A stretch of DNA of 64,000 nt from NCBI RefSeq assembly GCF_019977735.1, contig NZ_AP025018.1:9738580-9802579 (forward strand), in the 5' to 3' direction. The DNA comes from Calothrix sp. PCC 7716. Its GTDB lineage: Bacteria > Cyanobacteriota > Cyanobacteriia > Cyanobacteriales > Nostocaceae. Every line of letters begins with the position of its first letter. The stretch's first letter is position 1. The notes beneath the pieces are model-generated. The model did not search any database. It saw nothing but the letters and a program-made list of their open reading frames with translations, and was not told the origin of the DNA. Made by a program: the position numbers and the translations under genes. Shown one piece after another: positions 39,011 to 55,821 of this stretch.

Positions 39011-42000
39011 ATGAGATTACCACCAGGGCGTGATTCTGAACCACTTAATCGTCGATTATGGCTTTTACTGTTGAGACGTGGTAGTATTGCTTTGATTGTG
39101 GTTTTAGTCGCTTCCATTAGTGGTGGCGCCTGGTGGTTAAGAAATTTTATCCTTCAAGATTTAGTACCCTTAGTTCAAACGAATCTAGCTGAGTTGCTCG
39201 GACGACCGATAGAAATCGGTAAGGTGGATAGTGTAACTTTAAATAGTATCCGATTTAGTTCGCTCAATATACCCGCAACTGCACAGGACTCAGATAGAGT
39301 TACAGCAAAAGCTATTGATGTTCAATTTAATCCTTTACAAGTTCTTTTTACTAGAACTCTGAATTTAAATGTTGCTTTAGTCGAACCGAGTGTTTATTTA
39401 GAGCAAGATAAAAACGGTCAATGGTTAACTACACAAATAAAGACAGGGAAAGAAGAGAAAGGTTTTATTACGACTAATTTAGAAAGTTTGATTATACGCA
39501 ATGCCAGTTTGGCCTTAGTACCCACACCAAAACCTGGTATACCGAAAACTACTGTTGTTTTTAATCAAGCTAATGGTGTTATCAGAATTTTACCAGAGAA
39601 GCAAGGCGCCACTACTATAACAAATTTATCGTATGATATCGGCGCCTCTGTTAGCAATACTCAAGGTAAAGTAGATATCGATGGTAAAACTCAGTTAGTT
39701 TCAGGACAAATAAATTCGACGAACTTAAATGTCCAAGCACGTGATTTACTCGTTGCTGATATAACTAAATTAGTGCAATCACCGATAAGTGCGACTTCGG
39801 GTAGCGTTAATGCTTTCCTTACAGTAGATATTACACCGAAGGCGCCTATAAGTGTAACCGGAACCGCCGATTTAAATAAAATTGCCGCGAAAGTAGATAA
39901 TATTCCTCAATTAATTACCAACACCCAAGGTAACTTACAGTTTCAAGGTCAAAACATTTCTACAAATAACCTGACTACGAACTTTGGGAAAATACCACTC
40001 CAGGTACAAGGCACCGTCAATACTCAAACAGGTTACAATTTGAATGCGCTGATTCTACCCACAAATATTCAAACCATTCTCAGCACCCTCAACGCAAAGT
40101 CACCAGTTACAGCTATCGGACAAGTCCAAGCAAACGTCAAAATTCAAGGCAACATCAAACAACCCACCGCAACGGGAACCATTAGTACAGTAAAACTCGC
40201 GACTATCGACCGTTTACAACTAAACTCGGTCAGTAGCAACTTTCGTGTAGATATTTCAGGTACACCCGTTATTACCCTTTCTAACCTCCAAGTCACACCA
40301 ACCCTAGGAGGACAAATTTTAGGAAGTGGAAAAATTCAACTTGCTCAAAATGGTAATGTCAACCTAAATATACAAGCATTGGGAATTCCTGGAAATTCTG
40401 TTGCGGGTATATATAATGTTGCACTTCCTCTCAATATTGGTAACGTTGCTGCAAACGCGAATATTTCTGGCCAACTCGGTCAACCACTACAACTCGCTTT
40501 ACAAAACTTAAAAGTGGCACCAGAAATAGGAGGAGTAGTTACAGCAAACGGTAATATACAGTTAGCGCAGCAAGGTAATGTCAATCTAAATATACAAGCT
40601 TCGGGAATTCCAGGAAACAGAGTTGCTTCTGCATATAATATTGCACTTCCTATAAATATAGGTAATGTCGGCGCCAATGGTAATGTTTCAGGTCGTTTGG
40701 GAACATCTTCATTACAACTTGCTTTACAAAACTTAAAAGTGGCACCAGAAATAGGAGGAGTAGTTACAGCAAACGGTAATATACAGTTAGCACAGCAAGG
40801 TAATGTCAATCTAAATATACAAGCTTCGGGAATTCCAGGAAACAGAGTTGCTTCTGCATATAATATTGCACTTCCTATAAATATAGGTAATGTCGGCGCC
40901 AATGGTAATGTTTCAGGTCGTTTGGGTACTCCTTCATTACAACTTGCTTTACAAAACTTAAAAGTGGCACCAGAAATAGGAGGAGTAGTTACAGCAAACG
41001 GTAATATACAGTTAGCGCAACAAGGTCGAGTCAACTTAAATTTAAACGCTTTGCAAATACCTGGGGATGCAATAGCGCGTGCATATAAAGTGAAGGCTCC
41101 AATTACAATAGGTAATGTGAGTGCAAATGCGAATATTTCGGGAGTGCTGGGTAATTTAAGGACAATAGCACAATTTCAGGCGCCGAGTTCAACTTATCCG
41201 AGTTCGGGACAAATTAGCATTGCCACAAGTAATAACAATAATATAGAGTTGCAAAATGCGAGTATTCGCTTCGCTGGTGGAACGGTGACAGCACAGGGTA
41301 GGGTAGAAGATAAACGTTTTAATGTAGCTGTTCGTGCGGATGGTGTACAATTGAACCGCTTTGATAAATTACAGTTACCGAAACAACTTTCATCAGGGAG
41401 TTTGAATACAGCGTTGAATTTAACGGGTACAACAGACTCGTTACAGTTAGAGAATATACGAGCATTAGGACTTGCCACTATAAATAATGTAGCATCCGGC
41501 GCCGTCAATATAAGCAATATAAGTTTGAATAACGGTCGTTGGCAAGTTAATGGTGGTGTTTCGCAAATTGCCTTAAATCAGTTTTCGTCTAACTTACGTG
41601 GTCGGTTAAATAGTAGCTTTAATATAGGGGGAACAACAAAATCGTTTGCTCTCTCAAATATTCGTGGAAGTGGAAATTTTAATTTAACTCAAGGGGTATC
41701 GGTACTTGAACAACCCGTAGTGGGTAACTTACAGTGGGACGGTCAACTCTTAGGACTGAGTGCGAGAACTACAGGGTTAACCGCAAATGGTGTAATAGCA
41801 GTCAACACCGAAAGTCAAGCACCACAAATTACAGATTTGAATTTGAATATTGCTGCACGTAACTTTAACTTACTTAAGGCACCAGTAACAATACCAAATT
41901 TAGCTTTGGCTGGTAGAGTAGATTTTACAGGGAATGTCACGGGTAATTTAAACACACCTATTGCCAATGGAAATTTGGAGTTACGGAACTTTGCTGTAAA

Positions 42001-44782
42001 TAACTTAGCGTTCGACCCAGTTTTGACAGGAAGTGTGAGTTATGCTGGTGGAACGGGCGCCGCTTTGAATCTAACTGGTAACAAACAAGATAGAATAGCA
42101 GTGAATCTAGGCGCCGATAATCTTCCGACATCGTTTATAATTCAACGTGGAGAAAGTGTCGCAAAGGGTAGAACAGAGGGAGATAATTTAATTGCCAGTG
42201 CAGAAAACTTTCCTGTAACTGTTTTAGGAAGTCTTGTTCCTGCAAATATCCCAAATATCCAACCGTTAGCAGGGAATATATCAGGTAACGTTGTTGCGAA
42301 TATTAGAACGAGAAATGCAAGTGGCGCCGTAGCAGTGGTTCAACCAAGAATTGGTAGAATAGCGGGAGAAGCATTTACAGGAAACTTTAGCTTTATTAAT
42401 GGAACTGCCAGTTTAAATAATGGACAATTTCAAGTCGGTGATAGTTTAATATCGTTGAATGGTAGTGTAGAGACACAAGGAAATCGTCAAGTTCAAGTTC
42501 AAGCTACGGTAAATCAAGCCAGAATCGAAAAGCTTTTACAAGCATTGAGTATTTATAACTTTCAAGATTTATTAACAGGTGTAGAGTCTCCACAATTTGC
42601 AGGAGCTTCAGTATTAAGACCAACAACTGAGTTGTATATACCGCAGGATGTGAGTTTGTTAACGCAGTTGGATATATTTAAGAAAATTACAGATGTTATA
42701 GCTAAACAGGAAACAGTTGAGCAACAACAAGAAGTAACGGGTATACCAGCACTTTCGGAACTACAAGGTTTAATTAGTGCCAAGTTGGATGTAACAGGTT
42801 CGTTAGAGTCGGGGTTAAATACGAACTTTAATGTAAATGGTTCAAATGTGGAATGGGGGAGTTACAATATTGGGGGAGTAACGGCGAATGGTGATTTTAC
42901 GAATGGTACATTAACGTTACAACCTTTACAGGTAGGTTTTGAAGGTGGAATTTTAGGATTTACGGGACAGTTGGGTCAAAGAGAGTTATCGGGACAGTTC
43001 CGAGTATCGAACTTACCAATTTCAGCATTACAACGGTTTGGTAATTTACCAGTTAATGCGACGGGTGAAATAAACGCATTAACAGCGCTAAGTGGTAGTT
43101 TAACAAATCCGAGTGCGAAAGGGGATGTTTCCCTGGCAAATGCGACGTTAAATTCTAAACCGATAAAAAGCGCACAGTTGAGTTTTAATTTAAATAATGC
43201 GCGTTTAAATTTTGGTAGTACAGTAGCGGTAACCGATGCACAACCACTTAATATTATAGGTAGTATACCTGCTGCCTTACCATTCGGCGCTCCTCCAGAA
43301 AGTAATCAAATAAATATAACAGCGAATGTAAGAGATGATGGTTTATCGTTGTTGAACGTACTTACCGACCAAGTTAGCTGGGTTTCGGGTACGGGAGAGG
43401 TAAATGTAGCGATAGGGGGAACATTGAGTCAACCGACGATAACCGGAACAGCAAACGTGAATAATGCGACTTTGACAACGGTAGCATTAACAGAGCCTTT
43501 AACTAATGTAACAGGCGCCGTGCAATTTGACCGTGATGTAATAAATGTGCAAAATTTAGAAGCTTTATATAATAGAGAACGAGTAACAGCAGCAGGAAGT
43601 TTACCAATATTTGAGCAGCAAACAGTAAATAATCCTTTAACAGTATCATTAAATGACCTGAATGTGAGATTAGAAGGACTATATGAAGGGGGAGTTAGTG
43701 GAGATGCGGTTATTACAGGAAGTGTAGTCAAACCAGTATTAGGTGGAACAATAAGACTAGCTTCAGGAGAAGTATCAATAACTCAACGGTCAGGACAACA
43801 ACGACAGCAACCACAACAAGAAGCTTTAGAGACAGAAGAGAATGAAACACCAACTAACCAAAATACAACAACACAGCGTCCTCCCATTGGGTTTTCGGAA
43901 CTAAGATTAATATTAGAAGATAATGTGCGGGTTACAAGTGACTTATTGCCAACAAATTTAACAAACCCACTTTTATCGAGTTTAACAAATCAAGATTTTT
44001 TGAGCTTTGATGCAGAAGGCGCCTTAACAATAAATGGTACATTAGAAAAACCACTTCCTGAAGGAGTAATCAACTTAACAGGGGGACAAATAAACTTATT
44101 TGCTACACAATTTGTATTAGAACGGGGATACGAGCAAACAGCAACGTTTACACCAAGTCTAGGTTTAGACCCAATACTGAATGTAAGATTGTTAGCAATA
44201 GTACCAGAATCGAATGCAACTCGATTACCCACATCATCAATATCAGGAGAAATAAATGAAGTTCCAGTAACAAGTTTAGGTACATTACGCAGTGTGCGTG
44301 TATTTGCGCGTGTCAACGGACAAGCAAGTAATATAAACGACAACTTAGAATTAACAAGTGACCCAAGACGCAATAGAGCCGAAATAGTATCTTTAATAGG
44401 GGGAACTATCGTTAATGCATTTAACCAACAAGACGGAGGACTAGGAATAATATCCGCAGCAGGAAATAGAATATTAACACCCCTACAAGGAATAATCAGT
44501 TCACTCGGTCAAACAATAGGATTAAGCGAACTACGTTTATATCCCACAGTCATCAACAACCGTAGCACAAACAGAAGTTCATCAGTATTAGGATTAGCAG
44601 CAGAAGCAGGATTTAACGTCAATAGAAATATATCCTTATCAGTATCGCGAGTCTTCATAGTCGATGAACCATTTAGATATAACTTAATATATCGACTCAA
44701 CGACGAAATGTTATTGAGAGGTTCAACAGATTTATCAGAAGACAGTCGCGCGCTGTTTGAGTACGAAACTAGAATTCCATAA
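39011..44782 (+). CDS. TamB-like translocation/assembly module protein
   Basis: This 1923-residue protein has a short cytoplasmic start, one membrane helix (about residues 22-47), and a very long repetitive beta-rich periplasmic region. It ends with the conserved DUF490/TamB domain (about 1540-1923), including LRLILEDNVRVTSDLLPTNL, FVLERGYEQTATF, LELTSDPRRNRAEIVSLIGG and SEDSRALFEYETRIP. Such proteins bridge inner and outer membranes as a lipid-conducting groove or assist outer-membrane assembly. Residues about 497-720 hold three near-identical 75-residue units (225 bp each). It is the longest gene here and is monocistronic. Confidence 0.94.
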   Translation: MRLPPGRDSEPLNRRLWLLLLRRGSIALIVVLVASISGGAWWLRNFILQDLVPLVQTNLAELLGRPIEIGKVDSVTLNSIRFSSLNIPATAQDSDRVTAKAIDVQFNPLQVLFTRTLNLNVALVEPSVYLEQDKNGQWLTTQIKTGKEEKGFITTNLESLIIRNASLALVPTPKPGIPKTTVVFNQANGVIRILPEKQGATTITNLSYDIGASVSNTQGKVDIDGKTQLVSGQINSTNLNVQARDLLVADITKLVQSPISATSGSVNAFLTVDITPKAPISVTGTADLNKIAAKVDNIPQLITNTQGNLQFQGQNISTNNLTTNFGKIPLQVQGTVNTQTGYNLNALILPTNIQTILSTLNAKSPVTAIGQVQANVKIQGNIKQPTATGTISTVKLATIDRLQLNSVSSNFRVDISGTPVITLSNLQVTPTLGGQILGSGKIQLAQNGNVNLNIQALGIPGNSVAGIYNVALPLNIGNVAANANISGQLGQPLQLALQNLKVAPEIGGVVTANGNIQLAQQGNVNLNIQASGIPGNRVASAYNIALPINIGNVGANGNVSGRLGTSSLQLALQNLKVAPEIGGVVTANGNIQLAQQGNVNLNIQASGIPGNRVASAYNIALPINIGNVGANGNVSGRLGTPSLQLALQNLKVAPEIGGVVTANGNIQLAQQGRVNLNLNALQIPGDAIARAYKVKAPITIGNVSANANISGVLGNLRTIAQFQAPSSTYPSSGQISIATSNNNNIELQNASIRFAGGTVTAQGRVEDKRFNVAVRADGVQLNRFDKLQLPKQLSSGSLNTALNLTGTTDSLQLENIRALGLATINNVASGAVNISNISLNNGRWQVNGGVSQIALNQFSSNLRGRLNSSFNIGGTTKSFALSNIRGSGNFNLTQGVSVLEQPVVGNLQWDGQLLGLSARTTGLTANGVIAVNTESQAPQITDLNLNIAARNFNLLKAPVTIPNLALAGRVDFTGNVTGNLNTPIANGNLELRNFAVNNLAFDPVLTGSVSYAGGTGAALNLTGNKQDRIAVNLGADNLPTSFIIQRGESVAKGRTEGDNLIASAENFPVTVLGSLVPANIPNIQPLAGNISGNVVANIRTRNASGAVAVVQPRIGRIAGEAFTGNFSFINGTASLNNGQFQVGDSLISLNGSVETQGNRQVQVQATVNQARIEKLLQALSIYNFQDLLTGVESPQFAGASVLRPTTELYIPQDVSLLTQLDIFKKITDVIAKQETVEQQQEVTGIPALSELQGLISAKLDVTGSLESGLNTNFNVNGSNVEWGSYNIGGVTANGDFTNGTLTLQPLQVGFEGGILGFTGQLGQRELSGQFRVSNLPISALQRFGNLPVNATGEINALTALSGSLTNPSAKGDVSLANATLNSKPIKSAQLSFNLNNARLNFGSTVAVTDAQPLNIIGSIPAALPFGAPPESNQINITANVRDDGLSLLNVLTDQVSWVSGTGEVNVAIGGTLSQPTITGTANVNNATLTTVALTEPLTNVTGAVQFDRDVINVQNLEALYNRERVTAAGSLPIFEQQTVNNPLTVSLNDLNVRLEGLYEGGVSGDAVITGSVVKPVLGGTIRLASGEVSITQRSGQQRQQPQQEALETEENETPTNQNTTTQRPPIGFSELRLILEDNVRVTSDLLPTNLTNPLLSSLTNQDFLSFDAEGALTINGTLEKPLPEGVINLTGGQINLFATQFVLERGYEQTATFTPSLGLDPILNVRLLAIVPESNATRLPTSSISGEINEVPVTSLGTLRSVRVFARVNGQASNINDNLELTSDPRRNRAEIVSLIGGTIVNAFNQQDGGLGIISAAGNRILTPLQGIISSLGQTIGLSELRLYPTVINNRSTNRSSSVLGLAAEAGFNVNRNISLSVSRVFIVDEPFRYNLIYRLNDEMLLRGSTDLSEDSRALFEYETRIP
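40501..41034. repeat. 225-bp tandem repeats inside the TamB-like gene
   Basis: Units begin at 40501, 40726 and 40951, each opening ACAAAACTTAAAAGTGGCAC. The first two are almost identical over 225 bp, and the third matches for about 80 bp before diverging. Each unit codes for 75 residues, so copy changes keep the frame. Confidence 0.88.
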
Positions 44783-45067: not shown

Positions 45068-45649
45068 ATGATGAAAAATAGATTTGTAATTAGTTGGACG
45101 TTAATTAGTACTCTTTGCATAAGCTTGATAGTAAGTGGAATTATATTTGGCTCAGTTAATTGGCGCCCTGCTGATTACGGTAATATACAAACATCGATTG
45201 TCGTTTACTTCATTTATTGGATTTTATTAGCAAGTTTACAAGGAGCAGCGCTTTTTTGGAAGTTTGGAGATAAGAACTTTGCTTATAGATGGTTTTTTGT
45301 TACAAGCATAACTGGCTTTTTTGTCATGTTTTTGCATGATTTGATTGTACTACATGTTATGAACGTTGATACCAGAGGACAAGGATCAATCTTTCTTTTA
45401 CTTAGCTTACCGAGTTTAGCTATTACGGGTGGGTTTATATTAGGATTTGCTCAACTTTGGTTAATCAAAAATCGTTATAAACCTAATTTAGAACCTGTTC
45501 AACTGAATATGTACTGGCTATTTTTAGGTGTTGTTTCATGGATAATTGGTTTTGCTAGTTTTTATCTTGGTAATTTTTCCCCAGCTTTATTTATTCTTTA
45601 CCCTATTGGAAGCATTATTAAAGGCTGGTTTATTAATAAGTATTTGTAA
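45068..45649 (+). CDS. Hypothetical five-helix membrane protein, 193 aa
   Basis: I do not recognise the family. Hydrophobic helices lie at about residues 10-30, 43-65, 75-98, 110-132 and 148-185. Short charged loops include SVNWRPADYGNIQ and KNRYKPNLEP. The last helix pair contains LGVVSWIIGFASFYLGNFSP. No catalytic motif is visible. It stands alone on the + strand between the TamB-like gene and the curlin-like array, with a palindrome about 310 bp downstream. Confidence 0.7.
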   Translation: MMKNRFVISWTLISTLCISLIVSGIIFGSVNWRPADYGNIQTSIVVYFIYWILLASLQGAALFWKFGDKNFAYRWFFVTSITGFFVMFLHDLIVLHVMNVDTRGQGSIFLLLSLPSLAITGGFILGFAQLWLIKNRYKPNLEPVQLNMYWLFLGVVSWIIGFASFYLGNFSPALFILYPIGSIIKGWFINKYL

Positions 45650-46104
45650 TGTATATAAATTTAAATAATTTTTACCTGAGGGGCGGCATTTCAAAACTAT
45701 TACCTCATTCACTAGGCGTGTTATACAATAGTAACAAGCCTACAGGGTTAAAGAACCTTTCTCAAGAATTATATTAATTGAAAAATTTTAGCAAAGATGG
45801 AAATATGCAGTTCCTAATCCAATACTGCTTGGTTACGAATTAATAAGGTATCTACAGGGTTTTGTTCTTTGTCGAATTTTACCTTCGGTACACTACCTGA
45901 AGGGAAAACTACGTTTACGTGAACGCGCACCGAGCAGTCTTGGGCGCCTTGGAAGCAAAATGTGAACCGTGGTTCACATTTTCTAAGTATCGAGGTTTAA
46001 AATTGTATAATCCTTTTCCTGAAATGTACTAGTGTAAAATTATACGTTGATATTGATGTGTGAAAGCTTTTTGATTTTGTGGTTTGTAATAGCTTTCACG
46101 CACC
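45650..46104. other. 455-bp intergenic region with a perfect palindrome
   Basis: No gene is supported here. The one clear feature is AAAATGTGAACC-GT-GGTTCACATTTT at 45957-45982, listed separately, next to a GGCGCC at 45943. Confidence 0.55.
45957..45982. promoter_or_regulatory. 26-bp perfect palindrome, candidate operator or terminator
   Basis: AAAATGTGAACC and GGTTCACATTTT are perfect inverted copies separated by GT. The A and T ends could make it a bidirectional terminator for the converging genes around it, but the 310-bp distance from the upstream gene also allows an operator or a small-RNA end. Confidence 0.5.
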
Positions 46105-46677
46105 CTACTCTACGTTTAAATTTAAGGTGTAATTTATGTTTCCATCTCCGCTTGTTTGCTGGGTGATATTGTTGTCAGTACTGTTCATTTCTACTTTTAC
46201 AGATGCTGTCGCTGGTGTGTAATTACCTGATATTTCTACTTTTTTCTGTCCTCTTGTTAAGTAGGGTGATAAATTAATCTGAGATTGTTTGCCATTTAGG
46301 CGCCTGACTATTTTCCCATTAATTTTGATTGTCCCTCGTATTTTGGCGCCACCAGAGTTGATTTTTAGTATATGAGGTTGTCTACGATTCGCTGCACTTA
46401 TATTTATGCTATCACTCTGAATGTTTGTGTTATCTGATATTTGAGTACTGGAAGATGTAAAGTTGACGTTATCATCATCAACATCTTCTGTATCTTCATA
46501 CGAGTCGTCGTCTATTTCTGGCGCGGAGCTTTTTAGTAGCTTAGGAGACGAAGTTTGTTTTGAGCTAATACTAGTTTTTACTGTTGAGGTTTGTTGGCTA
46601 TAAGAATTATTGCTGAACAAGGTGAACAGACTGATAATTAAGCCAAGGGGAAGACCATAAAGAAGTATTTTTCGCAT
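46105..46677 (-). CDS. Secreted hypothetical protein with acidic linker, 190 aa
   Basis: An N-terminal signal peptide (about residues 1-27, ending NNSYSQQ) is followed by a Ser/Thr-rich low-complexity stretch and an acidic segment (DDDSYEDTEDVDDDN, about 57-71). The C-terminal ~80 residues appear beta-rich (INSGGAKIRGTIKINGKIVR, KVEISGNYTPATASVKVEM). It ends with NITQQTSGDGNINYTLNLNVE, which echoes the Q/G/N pattern of the curlin-like array next door. It lies 211 bp beyond the array on the same strand, so it may be an accessory of that system. No family recognised. Confidence 0.65.
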   Translation of the reverse strand: MRKILLYGLPLGLIISLFTLFSNNSYSQQTSTVKTSISSKQTSSPKLLKSSAPEIDDDSYEDTEDVDDDNVNFTSSSTQISDNTNIQSDSINISAANRRQPHILKINSGGAKIRGTIKINGKIVRRLNGKQSQINLSPYLTRGQKKVEISGNYTPATASVKVEMNSTDNNITQQTSGDGNINYTLNLNVE

Positions 46678-46776
46678 AAGCTTTAATTAGAGATAAAAGT
46701 ATAAAATGTCTAAATCTAAATGTAGAGACTGAAATATATCTGGTCTCTACTACTAATTTATCCAACAATGCCGAAA

Positions 46777-46792
46777 GCCCCCAGGAGGGGGC
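46777..46792 (-). terminator. Hairpin at the end of the curlin-like array
   Basis: GCCCCC-AGGA-GGGGGC is a perfect 6-bp stem followed on the - strand by TTTCGG. It lies about 100 bp after the last gene of the array. Confidence 0.55.
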
Positions 46793-46820
46793 AACAATTT
46801 GTTACAATTACTTAAATTAA

Positions 46821-46886
46821 AGAAACCCGGTTTCTAAGCAAAATTGTTGTTTTTATTACAAGATATAAATAAGAAACCGGGTTTCT
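46821..46886. repeat. REPIN-like doublet, copy 3
   Basis: AGAAACCCGGTTTCT (46821-46835) and AGAAACCGGGTTTCT (46872-46886) lie 51 bp apart, directly after the stop of the 46889 gene. Confidence 0.87.
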
Positions 46887-46888
46887 AA

Positions 46889-47245
46889 TTAGCGCTTGCG
46901 GCCAGGTACGTTTACTTGAGTGCCAACATTAATGTTAATATGTGGCATTCTTACTCCTGTTGGATTTTTACCACCAGATAGATGTTGGGTTCTATTGATG
47001 CTTTGATTGACTCTACCTCCTCCGGTGTAAACTTGAGCTCCAGTTGCAGTAGAGGTATTACCAAAACAATCTTTGCTGATGCTTTGACTGGTGTTTCTTG
47101 TTTGATTAGCTCGTTTGGCACCAACTGCAATTTGGTTATCAACAGCAACGTTAATACAGGTAGCGCTAGCTTTTGGTGTAAATGTGGGAACCAGTGTTGG
47201 CAGCGCGCTCATTACAGTAGCTAAAGCAATTAATTTTAGTTTCAT
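46889..47245 (-). CDS. Curlin-like small secreted protein 1 (diverged), 118 aa
   Basis: It has a signal peptide of about 28 residues ending PKASA. The mature part carries two Q/N/G-rich blocks: VDNQIAVGAKRANQTRNTSQ, and VYTGGGRVNQSINRTQHLSG. Two cysteines are present (TCINVA and KDCFGN). The C-terminus is basic (NVPGRKR). It is the most diverged member of the array and lies last in the transcription direction, bracketed by two REPIN-like doublets. It may be a nucleator or minor subunit of a fibre; that is inference. Confidence 0.7.
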   Translation of the reverse strand: MKLKLIALATVMSALPTLVPTFTPKASATCINVAVDNQIAVGAKRANQTRNTSQSISKDCFGNTSTATGAQVYTGGGRVNQSINRTQHLSGGKNPTGVRMPHININVGTQVNVPGRKR

Positions 47246-47287
47246 GATTTTCTCCGTATATGTGATGATAAATTAAAGAAACATTGA

Positions 47288-47367
47288 AGAAACCGGGTTT
47301 ATTGTCAATATTTGTAATATAAATAAATATTTGTCTGCGACAATGAATGCGTAGAAACCCGGTTTCT
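47288..47367. repeat. REPIN-like doublet, copy 4
   Basis: A degenerate AGAAACCGGGTTTAT (47288-47302) and an intact AGAAACCCGGTTTCT (47353-47367) are 65 bp apart. It fills the gap between two array genes. Confidence 0.8.
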
Positions 47368-47368
47368 A

Positions 47369-47695
47369 TTAGCAAGCTCTAGCTTGTTGCTGGGTTGTTT
47401 TCTGTGTTCCGTTAACGTTAACTGTGTTACGACGCCCTACAATTCCAACGTTCTGATTCATAAGTTGGTCGGAATATTGACGTTGAGAACCAGAGCGATG
47501 GCTGCAATATCCTCTTTTACGTTGGTTTTGCGTGGTAATTTGGGTACCGTTAACATGGGCTGAGTTGCCAGAACCATTAACATATACAGATTGATTGAGT
47601 TCTTGATTTGCGTCTTGCTTGGAACCAGCGAATGCTGCATTAGGAATCATAAGTACAGCAGCTAATAAACCAAGAGCGTAGATAGAATTTTTCAT
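47369..47695 (-). CDS. Curlin-like small secreted protein 2 (diverged), 108 aa
   Basis: The signal peptide ends MIPNAAFAG. Two repeat modules follow: ANQELNQSVYVNGSGNSAHV, and SDQLMNQNVGIVGRRNTVNV, each ending in NGTQ-TT-Q-Q. A basic Cys-containing linker (RKRGYCSHRS) joins them, and the chain ends QARAC. The layout of module, basic Cys linker, module, terminal Cys matches the conserved array members although the sequence has drifted. The spacing of Gln, Gly and Asn is like curlin repeats. Confidence 0.72.
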   Translation of the reverse strand: MKNSIYALGLLAAVLMIPNAAFAGSKQDANQELNQSVYVNGSGNSAHVNGTQITTQNQRKRGYCSHRSGSQRQYSDQLMNQNVGIVGRRNTVNVNGTQKTTQQQARAC

Positions 47696-47731
47696 TTTTG
47701 TATACCTAAGAGTGTTGTGTGTTTTTGTGTA

Positions 47732-48070
47732 CTATCTATTAGAACAGGCAGCAGATTGTTGACCCTGAACAACATTAGTATTAATAATTTTGATACGGTT
47801 ACGATTTCCGTTGTTTGCTGCTGAGATGTTTGTGTCGTTGGTGCCTCCTTGAGTTTGATTGGTAGGGGTTTGACATAAAAGCTTTTTAGCTCTTCTTTGT
47901 GACCTAATAACGTAAGTTCTGTTTACAATACGGATTTTGTTGTTTCTACCAACGTTACTAGCATTAATATTTGTGTTTCCGGTATCACCCTGAACTTGTT
48001 CACCCGCAAATGCCACAGGCGCCATTGCAAAGGCTGCAAGTATACCAAGAATTAAAGACTTTTTAAACAT
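47732..48070 (-). CDS. Curlin-like small secreted protein 3, 112 aa
   Basis: The signal peptide matches the rest of the array (MFKKSLILGILAAFAMAPVA). Module 1 is VQGDTGNTNINASNVGRNNK and module 2 is TQGGTNDTNISAANNGNRNR. The linker is basic with one cysteine (RSQRRAKKLLCQ), and a second cysteine lies near the end (QSAACSNR). It is intermediate between the diverged members downstream and the near-identical ones upstream. Confidence 0.75.
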   Translation of the reverse strand: MFKKSLILGILAAFAMAPVAFAGEQVQGDTGNTNINASNVGRNNKIRIVNRTYVIRSQRRAKKLLCQTPTNQTQGGTNDTNISAANNGNRNRIKIINTNVVQGQQSAACSNR

Positions 48071-48107
48071 AACTGCTTTAACTATTCCTTCCTATATATT
48101 GATAAAT

Positions 48108-48458
48108 TTAGTAGCAAGCAGCAGATTGAACTTGGCTAATGTTGGTTTCATTCGACACACGGGTGCGGTTGTAATTTCCAACAACTCCTGCATTAATTGC
48201 TGTATCGGTAACATTACCTTGAGTTTGGCTTCCACCAGAACACTTATTTCTGTGATGTCTGCCACGACGAGATTCATATTTGTCTTGGTATTGACCAACA
48301 TTAGTTGTGTTGTCAATATAACTGCTGTTACCGTGACCTACGCTACCTGCATTAATGTTGGTATAAGTACTGTTACCTTGTACTTGATCATTAGCAAAAG
48401 CTGCGGGCGCCAATGTCATAGCAGCAAGTACGCCTAAAACCAAAGATTTCTTCAACAT
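48108..48458 (-). CDS. Curlin-like small secreted protein 4, 116 aa
   Basis: The signal peptide is MLKKSLVLGVLAAMTLAPAA. Module 1 is VQGNSTYTNINAGSVGHGNS and module 2 is TQGNVTDTAINAGVVGNYNR; each ends in TN(V/I)-x-Q-x-Q. The linker DKYESRRGRHHRNKCSGGS is His/Arg-rich with one Cys, and the chain ends QSAACY. It has a ribosome-site-like AGGTAT spacing before ATG, shared with its neighbours. Confidence 0.78.
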   Translation of the reverse strand: MLKKSLVLGVLAAMTLAPAAFANDQVQGNSTYTNINAGSVGHGNSSYIDNTTNVGQYQDKYESRRGRHHRNKCSGGSQTQGNVTDTAINAGVVGNYNRTRVSNETNISQVQSAACY

Positions 48459-48509
48459 TGTTATATACCTAAGTTAATTGTGTGTGTGGTGTTGATGTTT
48501 GATGTTGTA

Positions 48510-48531
48510 GAGACGTGATACATCACGTCTC
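48510..48531. repeat. Inter-gene hairpin GAGACGTGAT/ATCACGTCTC, copy 1
   Basis: This perfect 10-bp stem with a 2-base loop lies upstream of gene 4 and downstream of gene 5 on the - strand. Copies recur at 48940, 49370 and 49832 between array genes, so the hairpin travels with the duplicated unit. Confidence 0.85.
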
Positions 48532-48540
48532 AATCTAAAT

Positions 48541-48888
48541 TTAGTAACAAGCAGCAGACTGACCTTGACTAACGTTGGTTACGTTACGAACGCGGGTGTT
48601 ATTGCGATTTCCAACAACTCCTGCATTAATTGCAGTATCAGTAACATTACCTTGAGTTTGGCTTCCACCAGCGCACTTACGAGTGTGGCGTTTCACACGA
48701 CGAGACTCATACTTGCCTTGAGATTGGTTGATATTAGTTCCGTTTTTAATATTGGTTCTGTTACCATTACCTACAACACCTGCTTCGATGGTGGTAACGG
48801 TGCTGTTACCTTGTGTTTGACCTGCAAAAGCTGCTGGCGCCAATGTCATTGCTGCGAGTAAGCCTAAAACCAAAGATTTCTTCAACAT
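48541..48888 (-). CDS. Curlin-like small secreted protein 5, 115 aa
   Basis: The start chosen is MLKKSLVLGLLAAMT at 48888; the longer frame reads into the inter-gene hairpin. Module 1 is TQGNSTVTTIEAGVVGNGNR and module 2 is TQGNVTDTAINAGVVGNRNN. The basic linker is KYESRRVKRHTRKCAGGS, and the chain ends QSAACY. It appears identical at the protein level to gene 6, with only a few silent DNA differences, so the pair is a very recent duplication. Confidence 0.8.
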   Translation of the reverse strand: MLKKSLVLGLLAAMTLAPAAFAGQTQGNSTVTTIEAGVVGNGNRTNIKNGTNINQSQGKYESRRVKRHTRKCAGGSQTQGNVTDTAINAGVVGNRNNTRVRNVTNVSQGQSAACY

Positions 48889-48939
48889 TGTTATATACCT
48901 TAAATTAGTTGTGTGTGTTTTGTTTCGATGTTTGTTGTA

Positions 48940-48961
48940 GAGACGTGATACATCACGTCTC
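48940..48961. repeat. Inter-gene hairpin, copy 2
   Basis: GAGACGTGAT-AC-ATCACGTCTC, identical to copy 1, lies between array genes 5 and 6. Confidence 0.85.
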
Positions 48962-48970
48962 AATCTAAAT

Positions 48971-49318
48971 TTAGTAACAAGCAGCAGATTGACCTTGACT
49001 AACGTTGGTTACGTTACGAACGCGGGTGTTATTGCGATTTCCAACAACTCCTGCATTAATTGCAGTATCAGTAACATTACCTTGAGTTTGGCTTCCACCA
49101 GCGCACTTACGAGTGTGGCGTTTCACACGACGAGACTCATACTTGCCTTGAGATTGGTTGATATTAGTTCCGTTTTTAATATTGGTTCTGTTACCATTAC
49201 CTACAACACCTGCTTCGATAGTGGTAACGGTGCTGTTACCTTGTGTTTGACCTGCGAAAGCTGCTGGCGCCAATGTCATTGCTGCGAGTAAGCCTAAAAC
49301 CAAAGATTTCTTCAACAT
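48971..49318 (-). CDS. Curlin-like small secreted protein 6, 115 aa
   Basis: This is the duplicate of gene 5, 430 bp away, with the same signal peptide, modules, Cys linker and QSAACY end. The upstream untranslated sequence (TATACCTTAAATTAGTTGTG on the + strand) is also shared, so promoter-proximal and ribosome-binding sequence were copied too. Confidence 0.8.
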   Translation of the reverse strand: MLKKSLVLGLLAAMTLAPAAFAGQTQGNSTVTTIEAGVVGNGNRTNIKNGTNINQSQGKYESRRVKRHTRKCAGGSQTQGNVTDTAINAGVVGNRNNTRVRNVTNVSQGQSAACY

Positions 49319-49369
49319 TGTTATATACCTTAAATTAGTTGTGTGTGTTTTGTTTCGATGTTTGTTGTA

Positions 49370-49414
49370 GAGACGTGATTAATTCCCTGCGGGACACTAC
49401 GCTCTGCACGTCTC
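49370..49414. repeat. Inter-gene hairpin, copy 3, with inserted loop
   Basis: GAGACGTG (49370-49377) pairs with CACGTCTC (49407-49414). The loop has been enlarged by CCCTGCGGGACACTACGCTC-type sequence, a different short cyanobacterial repeat nested in the hairpin. Confidence 0.75.
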
Positions 49415-49423
49415 AATTTAAAT

Positions 49424-49771
49424 TTAGTAACAAGCAGCAGACTGAGCTTGTCTAACGTTGGTTACATTATTGATGCGGGTGTTGTTACGATTTCCAACAA
49501 CTCCTGCGTTAATTGCAGTATCAGTAACATTACCTTGAGTTTGGCTGACACCAGCGCATTTACTTCTGTGGCGCTTTACGCGACGAGCCTCATACTTGCT
49601 TTGAGATTGTCCAACATTCGTTCTGTTATTAATATTGGTATTGTTACGATTACCTGAAACACCTGCTTCGATGGTGGTAACGGTGGTGTTACCTTGTGTT
49701 TGACCTGCAAAAGCTGCTGGTGCCAATGTCATTGCTGCGAGTACGCCTAAAACCAAAGATTTCTTCAACAT
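49424..49771 (-). CDS. Curlin-like small secreted protein 7, 115 aa
   Basis: The start is MLKKSLVLGVLAAMT at 49771. Module 1 is TQGNTTVTTIEAGVSGNRNN and module 2 is TQGNVTDTAINAGVVGNRNN. The linker is KYEARRVKRHRSKCAGVS, and the end is QSAACY. It differs from genes 5 and 6 at scattered positions, mostly Asn/Thr/Lys swaps at alternating, presumably surface, positions. Confidence 0.8.
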   Translation of the reverse strand: MLKKSLVLGVLAAMTLAPAAFAGQTQGNTTVTTIEAGVSGNRNNTNINNRTNVGQSQSKYEARRVKRHRSKCAGVSQTQGNVTDTAINAGVVGNRNNTRINNVTNVRQAQSAACY

Positions 49772-49831
49772 TGTTATATTCCTTAAATTAGTTATGTGTG
49801 TGTTGTTTCGATGTTTGATGTTTTTGTTGTA

Positions 49832-49853
49832 GAGACGTGATAAATCACGTCTC
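49832..49853. repeat. Inter-gene hairpin, copy 4
   Basis: GAGACGTGAT-AA-ATCACGTCTC lies between array genes 7 and 8. Confidence 0.83.
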
Positions 49854-49862
49854 AATTTAAAT

Positions 49863-50210
49863 TTAGTAACAAGCAGCAGACTGAGCTTGTCTAACGTTGG
49901 TTACATTATTAATGCGGGTGTTATTGCGATTTCCAACAACTCCTGTATTAATTGCAGTGTCAGTAACATTACCTTGAACTTGGCTTCCACCAGGGCACTT
50001 ATAAGAATGGCGTCTAACGCGACGAGATTCATACTTGGTTTGAGATTGGCCAACATTAGTTCTGTTATTAATGTTGGTTCTGTTGCCATTACCTACAACA
50101 CCTGCTTCGATAGTGGTAACGGTGCTGTTACCTTGTGTTTGACCTGCAAAAGCTGCTGGTGCCAATGTCATTGCTGCGAGTACGCCTAAAACCAAAGATT
50201 TCTTCAACAT
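49863..50210 (-). CDS. Curlin-like small secreted protein 8, 115 aa
   Basis: The signal peptide is MLKKSLVLGVLAAMTLAPAA. Module 1 is TQGNSTVTTIEAGVVGNGNR and module 2 is VQGNVTDTAINTGVVGNRNN. The linker is KYESRRVRRHSYKCPGGS, and the chain ends QSAACY. It is part of the same duplication series and close to gene 7 in its second half. Confidence 0.8.
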   Translation of the reverse strand: MLKKSLVLGVLAAMTLAPAAFAGQTQGNSTVTTIEAGVVGNGNRTNINNRTNVGQSQTKYESRRVRRHSYKCPGGSQVQGNVTDTAINTGVVGNRNNTRINNVTNVRQAQSAACY

Positions 50211-50261
50211 TGTTATATACCTTAATAGTTGTGTGTAAAAGTCATTAATAGGAGTTATTTC

Positions 50262-50624
50262 TTAATAGCAAGCCGCAGATTGACCTTGGCTAACATTAGT
50301 CACATTCGATACACGGGTGCGGTTGTAATTTCCAACAACTCCTGTTGAAATTGCAGTATCGGTAACATTACCTTGAACTTGGTTGCCACTAGGACGACAG
50401 CTACGACGATTGTATCTGCTACCACGACGTGACTCATACTTGGTTTGGTATTGACCAACGTTTGTTGTATTGTCAACACTAGTTCTGTTACCATTACCCA
50501 CGACACCTACATTAATGTCTGTAACAGTGGTGTTTCCTTGTACCTGGTCATTTGCAAATGCTGCTGGCACCATTGTCATTGCTGCTAATACGCCTAATAC
50601 CAAAGACTTCTTCAACATTTTCAT
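50262..50624 (-). CDS. Curlin-like small secreted protein 9 (first in transcription order), 120 aa
   Basis: It starts MKMLKKSLVLGVLAAMT; the second Met (50618) aligns with the starts of its neighbours. Module 1 is VQGNTTVTDINVGVVGNGNR and module 2 is VQGNVTDTAISTGVVGNYNR. The linker is longer (RRGSRYNRRSCRPSGN) and keeps the single Cys, and the chain ends QSAACY. As the 5'-most gene it probably carries the main promoter, in the spacer beyond 50624. Confidence 0.78.
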   Translation of the reverse strand: MKMLKKSLVLGVLAAMTMVPAAFANDQVQGNTTVTDINVGVVGNGNRTSVDNTTNVGQYQTKYESRRGSRYNRRSCRPSGNQVQGNVTDTAISTGVVGNYNRTRVSNVTNVSQGQSAACY

Positions 50625-51119
50625 ATACCTCTTAGTTGTGTGTTGTTCTTTAAGATTAATTTTATTTAACCAAGAAACTTAAGTGTTTAAGACGACAAAA
50701 AGCCCTAAATGTTTCCAGTTAACTTTTATTCCTTAGAAAATTAACATCATTGAAATTCAGTAATTTTACTCTATTCAATGTAATTGTTTTATCGTTTGGA
50801 ATAATTTGTTATACAGGGCTGAATCGAGTCATTCCGGATGATTTAGAAAAGTTTTTCTTTATCGTTGTGAAGCTGTTCTCAGAAGACCTGAGAAATAACC
50901 TCTTTCCGCTTGCCTCTATAACAGTTTTAACCAAAGTTCTTGAGTGTGTCAAGTGTTAATGCAAAAATTTTGGTAATTTTTTTTGTGGGCATTAAGGGGG
51001 AATATTGATAACACGTATTAGCTTAAATGAAATTACCCATGAGGGTACTTTGGATTTAATTGCATACTTAGGCGCACACTGAGGGCGCCATCAATATATA
51101 TATAGTGATATATATAGTG
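50625..51119. other. 495-bp spacer upstream of the curlin-like array
   Basis: The array promoter is expected here. A TTG-started 69-codon + frame at 50750-50959 has one hydrophobic segment and a Cys-rich end, but no good ribosome site and no family resemblance, so I do not call it a gene. A TATATATAGTGATATATATAG run lies at 51097-51118, next to the TPR gene end. Confidence 0.5.
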
Positions 51120-53087
51120 TTACCAGTCACTACTACGTTCTAGGCGTTGCATTAATCCCCCTTCTAATTTATCTTTCCATTTTAATACATCTGTACGTTC
51201 TGGCTCAATGCGTTCCCACATTTTTAGCCAAGCACGGGCGCCATCGCGTTGTTTTTTTGCAACTAAGAGTTCTAGGTAAGCATTGCTGAATGCTGAGAAC
51301 TCGTCGTAGTGGAAGCGTTTGCGCTGCATAATGGGTTTGATTATTTCTAGTGCTTCGTCAAGTTCACCTTTGACTATATGTCCGCGCGCGATACCGACTT
51401 TAGATAATATATAGTCTGGAAATTGTTCTATAACCTGATGTAACAGTGCTTGTCCTTCTTCTCTACGTCCTTGATATTCGTAGCAAAGTGCAAGGTTATT
51501 AAGTATGGTGGGAGATTGTGTAATTTCTAAAGCTTGTTTGAGGATTGTTTCAGCTTGTTCTAATGCTTCAGGTGTTGGTGTTTTCATCAACCAGTACGTT
51601 TGTGTTAGCATATCATGAACTTCTGGTGAATGCCTAAATATTGGTTCATTGTGGAATTCGTAGCTAAGAAGACTGATGTGTTGCCACTTGCCTTGTAACC
51701 ACATGCGGATAGTTTCTGGTAATAAACCCGCTGCTGATAAGTTGGTTGCAGCATGGTAACGCATTTCATCTGGACCACGCTGACTAAGTGCAAAGTCACG
51801 CATTGCGTTTTGCATGTCGGAGGTTTTAGCTAAAAAAGCTAAACTATAAGCTAGTTCGCGCCCACTAATGTCACCTCGGTCTAGAAGTGCGGGTATTAAA
51901 GAGGCAAAATTAGGATGTTCGGCTAAGAATTTTTGTATGACTTTTGACTTTTGTGCATCATATGACGATTTAGCATTGGCGCCTATGACTAGTCTAAGTT
52001 GGTCGATAGTTTTTTGTGTCACCCATTGTTCTAAACTAAAAGCCCAAGGTGCATGACGCTCTTGCATCGGTTTTTTAAGGTCATCTAAATTTTGTTGTAC
52101 TAAATGGGCGCCTGTCAAATAGCCTTGTGCTTTTTTCCATAAGTCACGTGCTTCATCAAGCCTAGAGAGCCTAGCCATAGTCACGGCAACCAAGTGGTAA
52201 AATAAACCACTACCGCTTTTCGTGTCACCGTGTAATTGAACTTCTTCGTAAATTTGTAAAATCCCTTCATCATCACCTAAGTAAGCGAGTGCCTCAACTT
52301 TTTTTGTCCAAGATTCCCAAGCTTTAGCACTACTACTAACTTTGAGACGTTGGGCAATAAGTTTAGCGTTTTCAAACTGACCGTTTAGACAAAGAAAGCG
52401 TGTTAAATTCGCAAGCGCATGTATATTATCAGGTTGGATATCAAGAACTTTTTGACAAGTACTAATAGCCTCGTTCAAATTACTTTCAATAAAACTAATC
52501 AAACTAAGATTATTATAAGCCGAAACAAAATTAGGACGTGCTTGTAAAACAGTTTCTTCAGCTTGACGTGCTTTCACGTACTCACACTGTTCTAAATATA
52601 ACTGTCCACGTTCATGTAATATAGCTATTTCCAATCCATCTTCTTTTACCAAACCAATATCAGCAACTAGTTTTTCTATTTTACTTTCTAATTCTGCTAC
52701 TTTAACAGCAGCATCACTAGCGCGTTCATGGTTTGGAAATTTACTCAAAGCATTACGAAAAGCTTGTAATGCTAATAAGAAATGCTGCATTAAAAAATAT
52801 CCGCCAGCTAACCCATAAGCAATATCAGCATTATTAGGTTGTACAGCTAATAACATCTCAGATGCGCGCGTATAACCAGGAATATCCTTTACTTCGTAAC
52901 AAGCATTAACGAGATTTAATAAAACATCAAGATTTTGGGGATAATCATGTGATAGAGCATTTAAACTATAACGTGCTTCCAACCATTGTCCCCGCACTAT
53001 AAACGCTTTAGCTTTACGCAACTCAGGTGCCAAAGGTAAGGCGCCAAACCCAGTATGCTTATGTAAAGACTTATTCAAGCTTGCCAT
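51120..53087 (-). CDS. Tetratricopeptide-repeat protein, 655 aa
   Basis: The protein is built of many TPR-like helical pairs, clearest at residues about 40-130 (QNLDVLLNLVNACYEVKDIPGYTRASEMLL), 170-245 (NFVSAYNNLSLISFIESNLNEAISTCQKVL) and 500-600 (SPTILNNLALCYEYQGRREEGQALLHQVIEQ). There is no signal peptide, so it is cytosolic. Such proteins are scaffolds for protein complexes. The middle region (about 330-470, EQWVTQKTIDQLRLVIGANA) has no repeat pattern and may be a separate helical domain. Its target is unknown. Confidence 0.88.
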   Translation of the reverse strand: MASLNKSLHKHTGFGALPLAPELRKAKAFIVRGQWLEARYSLNALSHDYPQNLDVLLNLVNACYEVKDIPGYTRASEMLLAVQPNNADIAYGLAGGYFLMQHFLLALQAFRNALSKFPNHERASDAAVKVAELESKIEKLVADIGLVKEDGLEIAILHERGQLYLEQCEYVKARQAEETVLQARPNFVSAYNNLSLISFIESNLNEAISTCQKVLDIQPDNIHALANLTRFLCLNGQFENAKLIAQRLKVSSSAKAWESWTKKVEALAYLGDDEGILQIYEEVQLHGDTKSGSGLFYHLVAVTMARLSRLDEARDLWKKAQGYLTGAHLVQQNLDDLKKPMQERHAPWAFSLEQWVTQKTIDQLRLVIGANAKSSYDAQKSKVIQKFLAEHPNFASLIPALLDRGDISGRELAYSLAFLAKTSDMQNAMRDFALSQRGPDEMRYHAATNLSAAGLLPETIRMWLQGKWQHISLLSYEFHNEPIFRHSPEVHDMLTQTYWLMKTPTPEALEQAETILKQALEITQSPTILNNLALCYEYQGRREEGQALLHQVIEQFPDYILSKVGIARGHIVKGELDEALEIIKPIMQRKRFHYDEFSAFSNAYLELLVAKKQRDGARAWLKMWERIEPERTDVLKWKDKLEGGLMQRLERSSDW

Positions 53088-54029: not shown

Positions 54030-55821
54030 TTGGACTTTGGACAAAATAATAAGTTTGCGAACAATGTTTGTGAGCTAAAAAAGGACGCAGTTTTTTATCC
54101 CAGTTATGAGATTAACTGAGTAAAACAAGTATATTTGCAGAAAAACTACGCAGCTTTAGGCTGTGAAATGTTTGATTTTTGACTTTTTTTGATAACAGGA
54201 TGCTTAACTCTTTTAGTCTGGGTCTGACCCCTCACCCTACCAGTCGCATTTCCTCGGGGTTTTGGCGAATTTCCTGGTTTTCCGACCTCCGAAATAATTC
54301 TTTGGAAGTCACGTTGTACGGTACTGGGAGAAATAATTTTATCATTGTTTTGCTTTTGATAGCGCTCCCACGGTCTTGGTAAATAGTTAGATAATTCTTT
54401 TGCAGCCCATAATTGTACGTAGGCGAGCATTACTAAACGTATCCAATTTTCTTCGCGCTTTACGTCGGTCGTTTGGAAATTAGTCATTAGTAAACGTTGC
54501 TTTTTAAATCTAAACATATGTTCTATGTCAAACCGTTGCCGATAGCAAGAATAGACTTCTGCAAGCGTAATACGTCCGCGTTGCTCACCCATAACTATCA
54601 ACCACATCGGTTTCCAAACCGCACAGCCAGTATCATCGGTAACATGAACCCGTACTAGAGTAAATGGGCATTTATACATTTGTTCTTGTTGAGTTCCCCT
54701 CATCAACATATGGTGCCAAGCCTTGAGGGTTACTGTGAATTGGCGACCTTTCTTGCTAGTGCTCTTGAATTGTGTTGTCTCGTCAGGCGGGTGCCAAGTC
54801 TCTTCAAGGGCAAGGTCGAAACGTTCAGCAAATTTTTTTGGACACCCGCGTTTCTTCTCTTCTTGTTGTGCAGGTGGTGAAGAGTAAAAAATTCGATTAC
54901 TACGAACTCTGGTAATTACAACCAAATTTTTGTGTTTGGATGAATTAAATAGGAATGAGCGTTGACTATAAGCACTATCAGCAGTTAATACTGATAATTT
55001 ACCGTGCCACGGAAGCGATTCATCTGACATCAATGCGTTAATTTGGTTAATGCCAACACTTATACCTTTCTTATCAGTTGGAACTCTTTCTCCCGACAGT
55101 GGAATTGACCAAGGCGCCGACTGGTGGGAGTCTTTTTCAGGTAACAGCGACACGAATGAAAAAGAATGACCAACACCGATGGATTTATTACCTGCAATAG
55201 TATTTGGCTGGTAAATATAACCTCTTTCAGGTAAGGTTGGAGAGTAAGGGCGCGGGTGAGGAGTTGTATCCGTTGCAAATAAGTAAAAAGAGCGTTTTTC
55301 CGGTTGGGGCGTAACTTCAGCAATTAGTCGAGTTAAATTTTTTAGCTTTTTTCTCTTCTTTTTCTTATCATCGTTGAAATTAAATGATTTTTCAATTGCC
55401 TTGTAGATTGAGCTATAAGTCCTTTCAAATAAAGGACTTATAGATAACTCAACAGGGGAAGAAGCGCCGTTTGAGTTACTAGCCAAAGCATCAATTAAAT
55501 CAATAATACTATCACTGTAAGATTTAAACAATTTACGTAAATGTTGCCGAAAAGAGCGGAATTGCGCTATTAATTGATTATTGTTTATTACTTGCATAGC
55601 CATCAGTTGTTTTGGTATGTAGTTCGTTTCTGATAATACTATGTATTGATATACTCACCCTGATGGCTATTTTTATAACTAACAACTTAGAGCAAAAGTT
55701 TTTATTAGTTCATATCAACTACTGGGAAGTCAATCTAATAAAATGAAAAATATAAATGAAAACAACGTAAATGTTCTTCGCAATATTAGTGCGCGAACGT
55801 ACTATTTTGTCCAAAGTCCAA
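54030..55821 (-). mobile_element. IS4/IS701-superfamily insertion sequence, 1792 bp
   Basis: Terminal inverted repeats are TTGGACTTTGGACAAAATA (left, 54030) and TATTTTGTCCAAAGTCCAA (right, ending 55821); similarity continues further in (AGTTTGCG / CGCGAACG). AT flanks both sides. Removing the element restores the reading frame of the surrounding AraC-type remnant. One transposase gene fills it. Only one GGCGCC lies inside (near 55114). Confidence 0.82.
54146..55603 (-). CDS. DDE transposase (IS4/IS701 superfamily), 485 aa
   Basis: The catalytic residues appear as D in YLFATDTTPHPRPYSPT (about residue 113), D in VLTADSAYSQRSFLF (about 209), and E in the textbook Y-2-R-3-E-6-K signature YRQRFDIEHMFRFKK (about 363). 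The N-terminal ~90 residues contain a basic helical region and DDKKKKRKK. The C-terminal ~50 residues are basic and Gly/Pro-rich (GKPGNSPKPRGNATGRVRG), probably DNA-contacting. The frame is intact, so the element may be active. Confidence 0.88.
   Translation of the reverse strand: MAMQVINNNQLIAQFRSFRQHLRKLFKSYSDSIIDLIDALASNSNGASSPVELSISPLFERTYSSIYKAIEKSFNFNDDKKKKRKKLKNLTRLIAEVTPQPEKRSFYLFATDTTPHPRPYSPTLPERGYIYQPNTIAGNKSIGVGHSFSFVSLLPEKDSHQSAPWSIPLSGERVPTDKKGISVGINQINALMSDESLPWHGKLSVLTADSAYSQRSFLFNSSKHKNLVVITRVRSNRIFYSSPPAQQEEKKRGCPKKFAERFDLALEETWHPPDETTQFKSTSKKGRQFTVTLKAWHHMLMRGTQQEQMYKCPFTLVRVHVTDDTGCAVWKPMWLIVMGEQRGRITLAEVYSCYRQRFDIEHMFRFKKQRLLMTNFQTTDVKREENWIRLVMLAYVQLWAAKELSNYLPRPWERYQKQNNDKIISPSTVQRDFQRIISEVGKPGNSPKPRGNATGRVRGQTQTKRVKHPVIKKSQKSNISQPKAA

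Follow-up and report, generated by a model that had tools for sequence, protein, structure and literature searches.

What do nine small tandem genes in a Calothrix genome build? The genes occupy positions 46889-50624, on the minus strand, of a 64,000-nucleotide stretch of contig NZ_AP025018.1 from Calothrix sp. PCC 7716 (hereafter the window). The source genome, from the Calothrix group, comprises 12.37 Mb in 10 contigs, and its named relatives are Calothrix FI2-JRJ7, HK-06, PCC 7103 and NIES-4105 and Dulcicalothrix PCC 7102. A sequence-only reading had described the locus as an array of curlin-like secreted proteins and a candidate fibre system. Judged from sequence and gene order, the locus is a conserved operon of signal-bearing modular proteins. 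We put the probability at about 0.5 that these are subunits of a CsgG-independent extracellular fibre or fibrous matrix, curli-like in its working but not curli; both fibre formation and export are what we infer.

The array and its gene classes

Nine consecutive genes do lie in tandem on the minus strand, as had been claimed, and they encode eight distinct proteins. They are not all of one kind, as P0001 is a different partner (D), and the unit does not end at 46889, since a tenth gene (E) also belongs to it. Classes A to E were assigned with our own hidden Markov models (HMMs), seeded by eye; in the window, class A has seven genes and six distinct proteins, and B, D and E have one gene each. 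The A genes below rest on open reading frame (ORF) calls and on their duplicated halves.

50262-50618, minus strand: A gene P0008, first of the array, 118 residues
49863-50210, minus strand: A gene P0007, 115 residues
49424-49771, minus strand: A gene P0006, 115 residues
48971-49318, minus strand: A gene P0005 copy 1, 115 residues
48541-48888, minus strand: A gene P0005 copy 2, 115 residues, protein identical to copy 1
48510-48531, no strand: perfect inverted repeat GAGACGTGAT-N2-ATCACGTCTC, between A genes
48108-48458, minus strand: A gene P0004, 116 residues
47732-48070, minus strand: A gene P0003, 112 residues, diverged lineage (also from the tree)
47369-47695, minus strand: B gene P0002, 108 residues, two-module, conserved B lineage, proposed minor subunit (own HMMs, tree, motif)
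46889-47245, minus strand: D gene P0001, 118 residues, conserved partner, signal-bearing by eye (own HMMs, alignment)
46105-46677, minus strand: E gene P0009, 190 residues, signal- or anchor-bearing, with a beta-sandwich domain (own HMMs, model)

The ORF of P0008 has an alternative ATG at 50624, two codons upstream; 50618 is the likelier start, since the ATG there aligns with the starts of the paralogues. Neighbouring genes are 36-123 bases apart as far as D, with 211 bases separating D from E; the ten-gene unit is flanked by a TPR gene (51120-53087) and a TamB gene (39011-44782; E=2.4e-53).

Inverted repeats (GAGACGTG...CACGTCTC) stand between A genes. The 22-base repeat at 48510-48531 recurs at 48940-48961 and 49832-49853 and, in interrupted form, at 49370-49414; with up to three mismatches it occurs nowhere else in the window. 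In loci L012-L014, too, repeats (whole or interrupted) separate A genes, but none were found in L011 or L015. No RNA element reached Rfam gathering scores at 45500-51200. A promoter scan was uninformative (6 found versus 14.4 expected), and terminator-like sites numbered 8 versus 3.5 expected.

Each A and B protein is a duplicated module

In the seven distinct A and B proteins (eight genes), half-versus-half scores are 78-125, compared to 49-54 for the best of 1000 shuffles, and for each protein 0/1000 shuffles reached the observed score. P0001 scored only 34, which 2/1000 shuffles equalled or bettered, and hence is not clearly a two-module protein; in alignment it is 17% identical to P0005. 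The architecture previously extended to the whole array, a basic linker with Cys connecting two modules, therefore applies to eight genes and not clearly to P0001. Two Cys are present in every mature array protein, and basic residues outnumber acidic ones (8-13 K+R versus 2-6 D+E); the basic stretch and one Cys of the A and B proteins were placed in the linker by eye. The residues N, Q, S, T and G make up 53-58% of mature A and B proteins and 49-58% across the array. By eye, all nine proteins share a signal-peptide-like N-terminus, in agreement with the common signal style noted earlier, and the A and B leaders end in A-x-A, Sec style, with no double glycine.

The two P0005 genes differ at three nucleotides, all silent third-codon positions, whereas the two next relatives compared show 16-18 amino-acid codon differences plus 11-13 silent ones, indicating that very recent and older duplications coexist. 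Identity to P0005 is 86, 84, 75, 72, 46 and 36-37% among the array proteins, which bears out the proposed gradation from near-identical to diverged members.

An array of numerous, diverging tandem genes whose signal-like segments are conserved is also what one would expect of small secreted effectors or bacteriocin-like peptides, with repeated genes giving variety, and the tandem secreted EbfG proteins of Synechococcus share one operon (available part of PMC9981879). We consider this reading very improbable. No immunity-like gene was seen, by eye, paired with each copy, the modules are of low complexity (N/Q/T/G), and copies encoding the same protein (the P0005 pair, and three on the plasmid pP880101 described below) argue for dose. 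Moreover, the EbfG proteins are themselves described as matrix proteins in that part of the source.

Spaced motifs and a predicted strand-turn-strand fold

Two spaced motifs, both picked after the alignments had been inspected, recur in the modules. Among 43 non-redundant A proteins, 16 carry Q-x13-G-x2-N-x13-Q, with 31 occurrences in all (shuffle mean 0.6), and the exact spacing is present in 67/162 A/B proteins. Q-x3-Q-x5-G-x2-[NS] occurs 28 times in 19 non-redundant B proteins (15/19; shuffle mean 1.0, maximum 5) and 26 times in 17 distant subunits (14/17; shuffle mean 0.6, maximum 4), a set that was picked by eye as Q/N-rich signal-bearing genes beside D or E (19 before two near-copies were dropped), such that this test was not blind. 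Around the turn, alternate residues are conserved on both strands (even versus odd, 2.42/1.87 bits; odd versus even, 2.64/1.43 bits), and 2/5000 permutations were as strong in their best phase; the 43 non-redundant modules compared were chosen by the motif Q-x13-G-x2-N-x13-Q itself.

Mature P0005, modelled from 37 sequences, is predicted to be all-beta, with strands 7-17 and 22-39 around a G18-x2-N21 turn. The curlin-like design suggested earlier is thus borne out as strand, G-x2-N turn and strand with alternate residues conserved; the all-beta, strand-turn-strand fold stands as a prediction, although the model is weak. The 10 non-significant Foldseek entries for this model include FapC, which comes first, and the HET-s and CsgA fibrils.

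Stretches of T-x-T-x-I are present in the Calothrix A proteins. Such stretches, and the single ice-binding protein among the non-significant Foldseek entries, could point to beta-solenoid ice-binding or desiccation-protective proteins, with T-x-T ladders facing ice or water. However, T-x-T is found in the window's own genus and a few genera such as g13 and g149, with Q, S or N elsewhere (by eye), and we find this explanation hardly credible.

The operon is conserved across Nostocaceae

Relatives of the array profile were found in 64/217 Nostocaceae genomes and in 6/386 genomes sampled across the phylum. These prevalences, like those given below, are lower bounds, as in the genome searches only the top candidates from an initial pass were scored. 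We fetched 33 stretches and excluded L047 and L095 (solitary A genes), L046 (a contig end without A), and L048, L093, L094, L096 and L097 (own genus), leaving 25 array loci from 16 other Nostocaceae genera. By our own HMMs, 16/25 loci and 11/16 genera have the full order XRE-[A/B]n-B-C-D-E. In 21/25 loci the classed gene immediately preceding the first A/B gene is an oppositely oriented XRE; B-C-D occur in order in 22/25, and E is present in 18/25. A contig end lies on the side of the missing part in L045, L079, L081, L085, L087 and L090, an excuse that does not apply to L041 and L076 (no E) or L083 (no XRE, no E). Most of the 25 loci are flanked by a polysaccharide deacetylase gene on one side and by PIN and MltA-like genes on the other; these names, like XRE, were given by eye.

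In the window's own genus (the window and five relatives, 6/6), the order is TPR-[A]n-B-D-E-TamB, without C. The source genome also carries a reduced A-C-E set at an XRE-linked site (L048), and another genome of the genus (G435) has XRE-A3-B-C-D without E (L093), plus an A gene beside TPR (L094). The XRE-linked site is presumed to be the ancestral location. Adjacency to TamB in the window and the five relatives could indicate envelope structural proteins, periplasmic or outer-membrane, that never leave the cell and are tied to outer-membrane building, and the MltA-like gene (by eye) beyond E at many other loci fits the same idea. Yet among the loci examined the TamB neighbourhood is restricted to the own genus and other genera differ, making this reading distinctly improbable.

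A and B copies have different histories

When 158 A and B proteins were placed on one tree, 118/126 A proteins had their nearest neighbour within the same genus and 68/126 within the same locus. For B proteins, the nearest neighbour is another B in 32/32 cases and lies at another locus in 27/32. By this tree, A appears to have been expanded or homogenised lineage by lineage, with B mostly one inherited gene. Continuing expansion, as proposed earlier, is supported by the multiplication of A copies genus by genus and by the mix of recent and older duplicates within the array; the suggested division into major and minor subunits is likely, given multiple A genes versus a usually single B. Nothing in the data pointed to the antigenic-style variety that had also been proposed, though no search aimed at it was made. 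We read B as probably retaining the old form and A as derived. Two matches are classed as B in each of L083 and L089, one of those in L089 being longer and doubtful. Relatives of P0003 occur as solitary genes, away from arrays, in two other genera (L047:8029-8376, L095:9826-10173).

Partner genes and distant relatives

Across 31 aligned D sequences, C30, C60, Q38, Q71 and Q81 are invariant. The domain of E (residues 86-190), modelled from six sequences, is predicted to be a beta-sandwich, with a predicted local distance difference test score (pLDDT) of 88.7 and a predicted template-modelling score (pTM) of 0.81. No entry in a structure search with this domain reached E 0.001 (the best, Fn3-like, had E 0.022); the non-significant matches include many GH2 domains and the EbpB pilin (TM 0.54-0.55). 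Searching the E profile against PDB returned ABC transporters and others (best E 0.0096), which we judged to be chance. One XRE protein has sub-threshold matches to helix-turn-helix repressors.

A further gene, F, encodes a strongly conserved protein of ∼170 residues (PVNTENDFGFN...IFQPGRT) with a coiled-coil-like end by eye. It lies near D or E in 11 loci (L044, at 17329-17856; L082, L077, L092, L076, L108-L112 and L128). We rejected F as a required part, as it was found in 3/17 genomes searched and in 0/6 of the own genus. At two loci a ∼360-residue protein with several G-x2-N-x-V-x-Q modules (by eye) follows E (L136:1660-2736, L103:10010-11116). For the L103 copy, a PEP-CTERM match stays below threshold (17.7 bits versus a cut-off of 20.7), and the L136 copy has none; this protein is possibly a surface-anchored nucleator.

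Among the 386 genomes sampled over the phylum, the D profile was found in 21 and the E profile in 16, with both in 13 and either in 24; the bearers span eight families (f1, f5, f7, f9, f12, f16, f22, f29). All 14 D loci examined outside the window's own family have a small signal-bearing Q/N-rich gene near D (by eye). On plasmid pP880101 of Rippkaea orientalis PCC 8801, three subunit copies are followed by C, D and E, across the record origin; the copies share one protein accession and differ by 1-3 bases, and they, C, D and E all carry the annotation hypothetical. An alignment of 13 distant subunits with five Nostocaceae proteins (two from the window) shows that they have the two-module plan in common, each module containing one glycine that never varies. 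Apparently three or more modules are present at L109, L126, L127 and L131 (by eye).

These comparisons bear on the main rival, namely that the array encodes non-amyloid matrix or sheath proteins. Here, two folded beta modules would be joined by a basic Cys linker that binds acidic exopolysaccharide, disulfides would provide cross-links and copy number would set sheath density. The basic charge and two Cys of the mature proteins fit, as do the deacetylase-like gene beyond XRE at most loci examined and the non-significant resemblance of the E domain to GH2 and Fn3-type beta-sandwiches. However, distant members keep the two modules but not the linker or its Cys (by eye), and no carbohydrate-binding family scored above cut-off. 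On balance, we think this explanation unlikely, though deserving of serious weight.

A candidate fibre system without CsgG

In Pfam, the nine distinct proteins (eight from the array, plus E) gave nothing near cut-off (best 14.9 bits, for E, versus 31.5), and in NCBIfam none exceeded it (best 20 bits, to acid-shock protein Asr, versus 50). Asr was rejected because its matches begin in the signal segment and are far under the cut-off. Six of the nine proteins were compared with PHROGs, the sole match being 18.5 bits for P0009. Thus, as the sequence-only reading held, the array has no named family in Pfam or NCBIfam, and no known non-fibre family scored above cut-off in the libraries searched. 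The literature searched contained no description of the A/B family; most subscription journals were outside its scope, and novelty is hence unproven. A plasmid search with P0005 as query returned no match.

In the fibre reading, the A and B proteins would leave the cytoplasm by Sec, remain largely unfolded and cross the outer membrane by a route without CsgG, whereupon modules would stack on modules to form fibres. A would be the variable bulk subunit and B a minor or nucleating one, with D and E serving in assembly, in anchoring or in passage through the outer membrane. At its presumed ancestral site, the operon may be regulated by the divergent XRE protein, and repeated A genes could both raise dose and permit mixed subunits. 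More broadly, and tentatively, we suggest a separate cyanobacterial class of fibres, characterised by long-armed beta-arch subunits, mostly of two modules, by assembly genes of its own (C, D, E, and sometimes F or the PEP-CTERM-like multi-module partner) and by CsgG-free export.

Several observations weigh against the fibre reading. Among the 43 non-redundant A proteins, 27 lack the exact Q-x13-G-x2-N-x13-Q spacing, and Q-x3-Q-x5-G-x2-[NS] is found in none. The P0005 model is weak (pLDDT 66.6, pTM 0.42; five models, 37.6-66.6), and nothing in its Foldseek list is significant (best E-value 1.7), the seven entries besides FapC, HET-s and CsgA being non-amyloid (CcmM, SufB, GlmU, an ice-binding protein, 1vh4, endoglin and bactofilin). 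The division into major and minor subunits is not universal, since L043 and L081 each have four B-type genes and no A. The curlin repeat (PF07012) was absent from the eight distinct array proteins, seven distant subunits and the plasmid subunit P0010, and was over cut-off in 0/21 genomes, the source genome included (weaker matches in 6). CsgG (PF03783) had no match in the source genome, and 16/20 other bearing genomes are also without it; no export pore was identified, CsgG having been searched for and a FapF-type pore not. The core Q-x-G-x2-N of the minimal curli repeat, x6-Q-x-G-x2-N-x10 (available part of PMC3521004), occurs once in A proteins versus 6.9 expected and not at all in B versus 3.3 expected. 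Finally, the window proteins have two modules, compared to the 4-62 repeats, of mean length 23, given for curli subunits in the accessible portion of PMC10192328.

If the fibre reading is correct, the family libraries used here lack a protein-fibre system common to filamentous and unicellular cyanobacteria. Its genes would open sheaths, mats and filament adhesion to molecular study, and nature would in effect have run an experiment on the multiplication of amyloid-like subunits beside a nucleator-like subunit that is largely fixed. A further, testable question would be how subunits pass the outer membrane without CsgG.

Other features of the window

Within the TamB gene, near-identical repeats of ∼75 residues were seen by eye (QLALQNLKVAPEIGGVV...NVSGRLGT). 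These repeats also give rise to a long mirror ORF at 40480-41034, and related repeats are seen in the relative L015. At 57537-59462 are genes for a phage major head protein (phrog_212, E=1.5e-77) and a scaffolding protein (phrog_206, E=7e-17), adjoining a 1470-residue ORF on the opposite strand; this segment is a prophage or prophage remnant. Transposase-like ORFs (by eye) lie at 3389-5059, 14049-15109 and 54146-55603, the last without a PHROG match.

Comparison with curli, Fap and EbfG

We compared the array with curli through the families PF07012, PF03783, PF10627 and PF10614. On the curlin, CsgG, CsgE and CsgF searches, membership of curli was rejected: in addition to the missing curlin repeats, the source genome has no CsgE and a single sub-cut-off CsgF match (E=0.12) within a 1798-residue frame. 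The earlier remark that no CsgG stands beside the array is true at the locus and extends to the whole genome. CsgG is over cut-off in 4/20 other bearing genomes (G091, G289, G411, G536), but not inside any array or D/E stretch fetched from those 20. In the available text of PMC10192328, only 2% of CsgA-bearing genomes are without CsgG. The curli core Q-x-G-x2-N is enriched in the distant subunits (13 versus 2.8 expected, 7/17 proteins); three of these were searched by sequence for a link to CsgA chains, with no CsgA match.

The likeness to curli lies in small signal-bearing repeat proteins, a strand-arc-strand module with one conserved face, and a variable plus a conserved subunit; variable A and conserved B resemble variable CsgA and conserved CsgB (PMC3521004, as far as its available part goes). 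Curli fibres are amyloid and built as a left-handed beta-solenoid of stacked arches; the strand-turn-strand plan of the weak P0005 model (pLDDT 66.6, no significant structural match) might fit such a fold. Further differences are in the position of Q relative to the turn glycine, at -6 and -10 in B and distant members compared to -2 in curli, and in the partners, which here are C, D and E.

FapC, of the Pseudomonas Fap amyloid, has few modules separated by linkers. The array proteins likewise have few, linker-separated modules, and FapC heads the non-significant Foldseek list (E 1.7), although it is absent among PDB chains matched by sequence. No Fap-like operon was noticed by eye, and no search aimed at Fap was run.

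EbfG proteins carry a double-glycine leader and have their own transporter. Inspection of the ORF list by eye showed nothing transporter-like next to the array, with no aimed search run. EbfG1-4 of Synechococcus elongatus PCC 7942 are small tandem secreted proteins of the biofilm matrix, three of the four being amyloid-prone in the authors' assay (both from the available part of PMC9981879). The proteins described here are similarly small, tandem and cyanobacterial, and apparently secreted. They differ in core motif from EbfG, as far as that part of PMC9981879 describes it, and in having Sec-like leaders and two modules.

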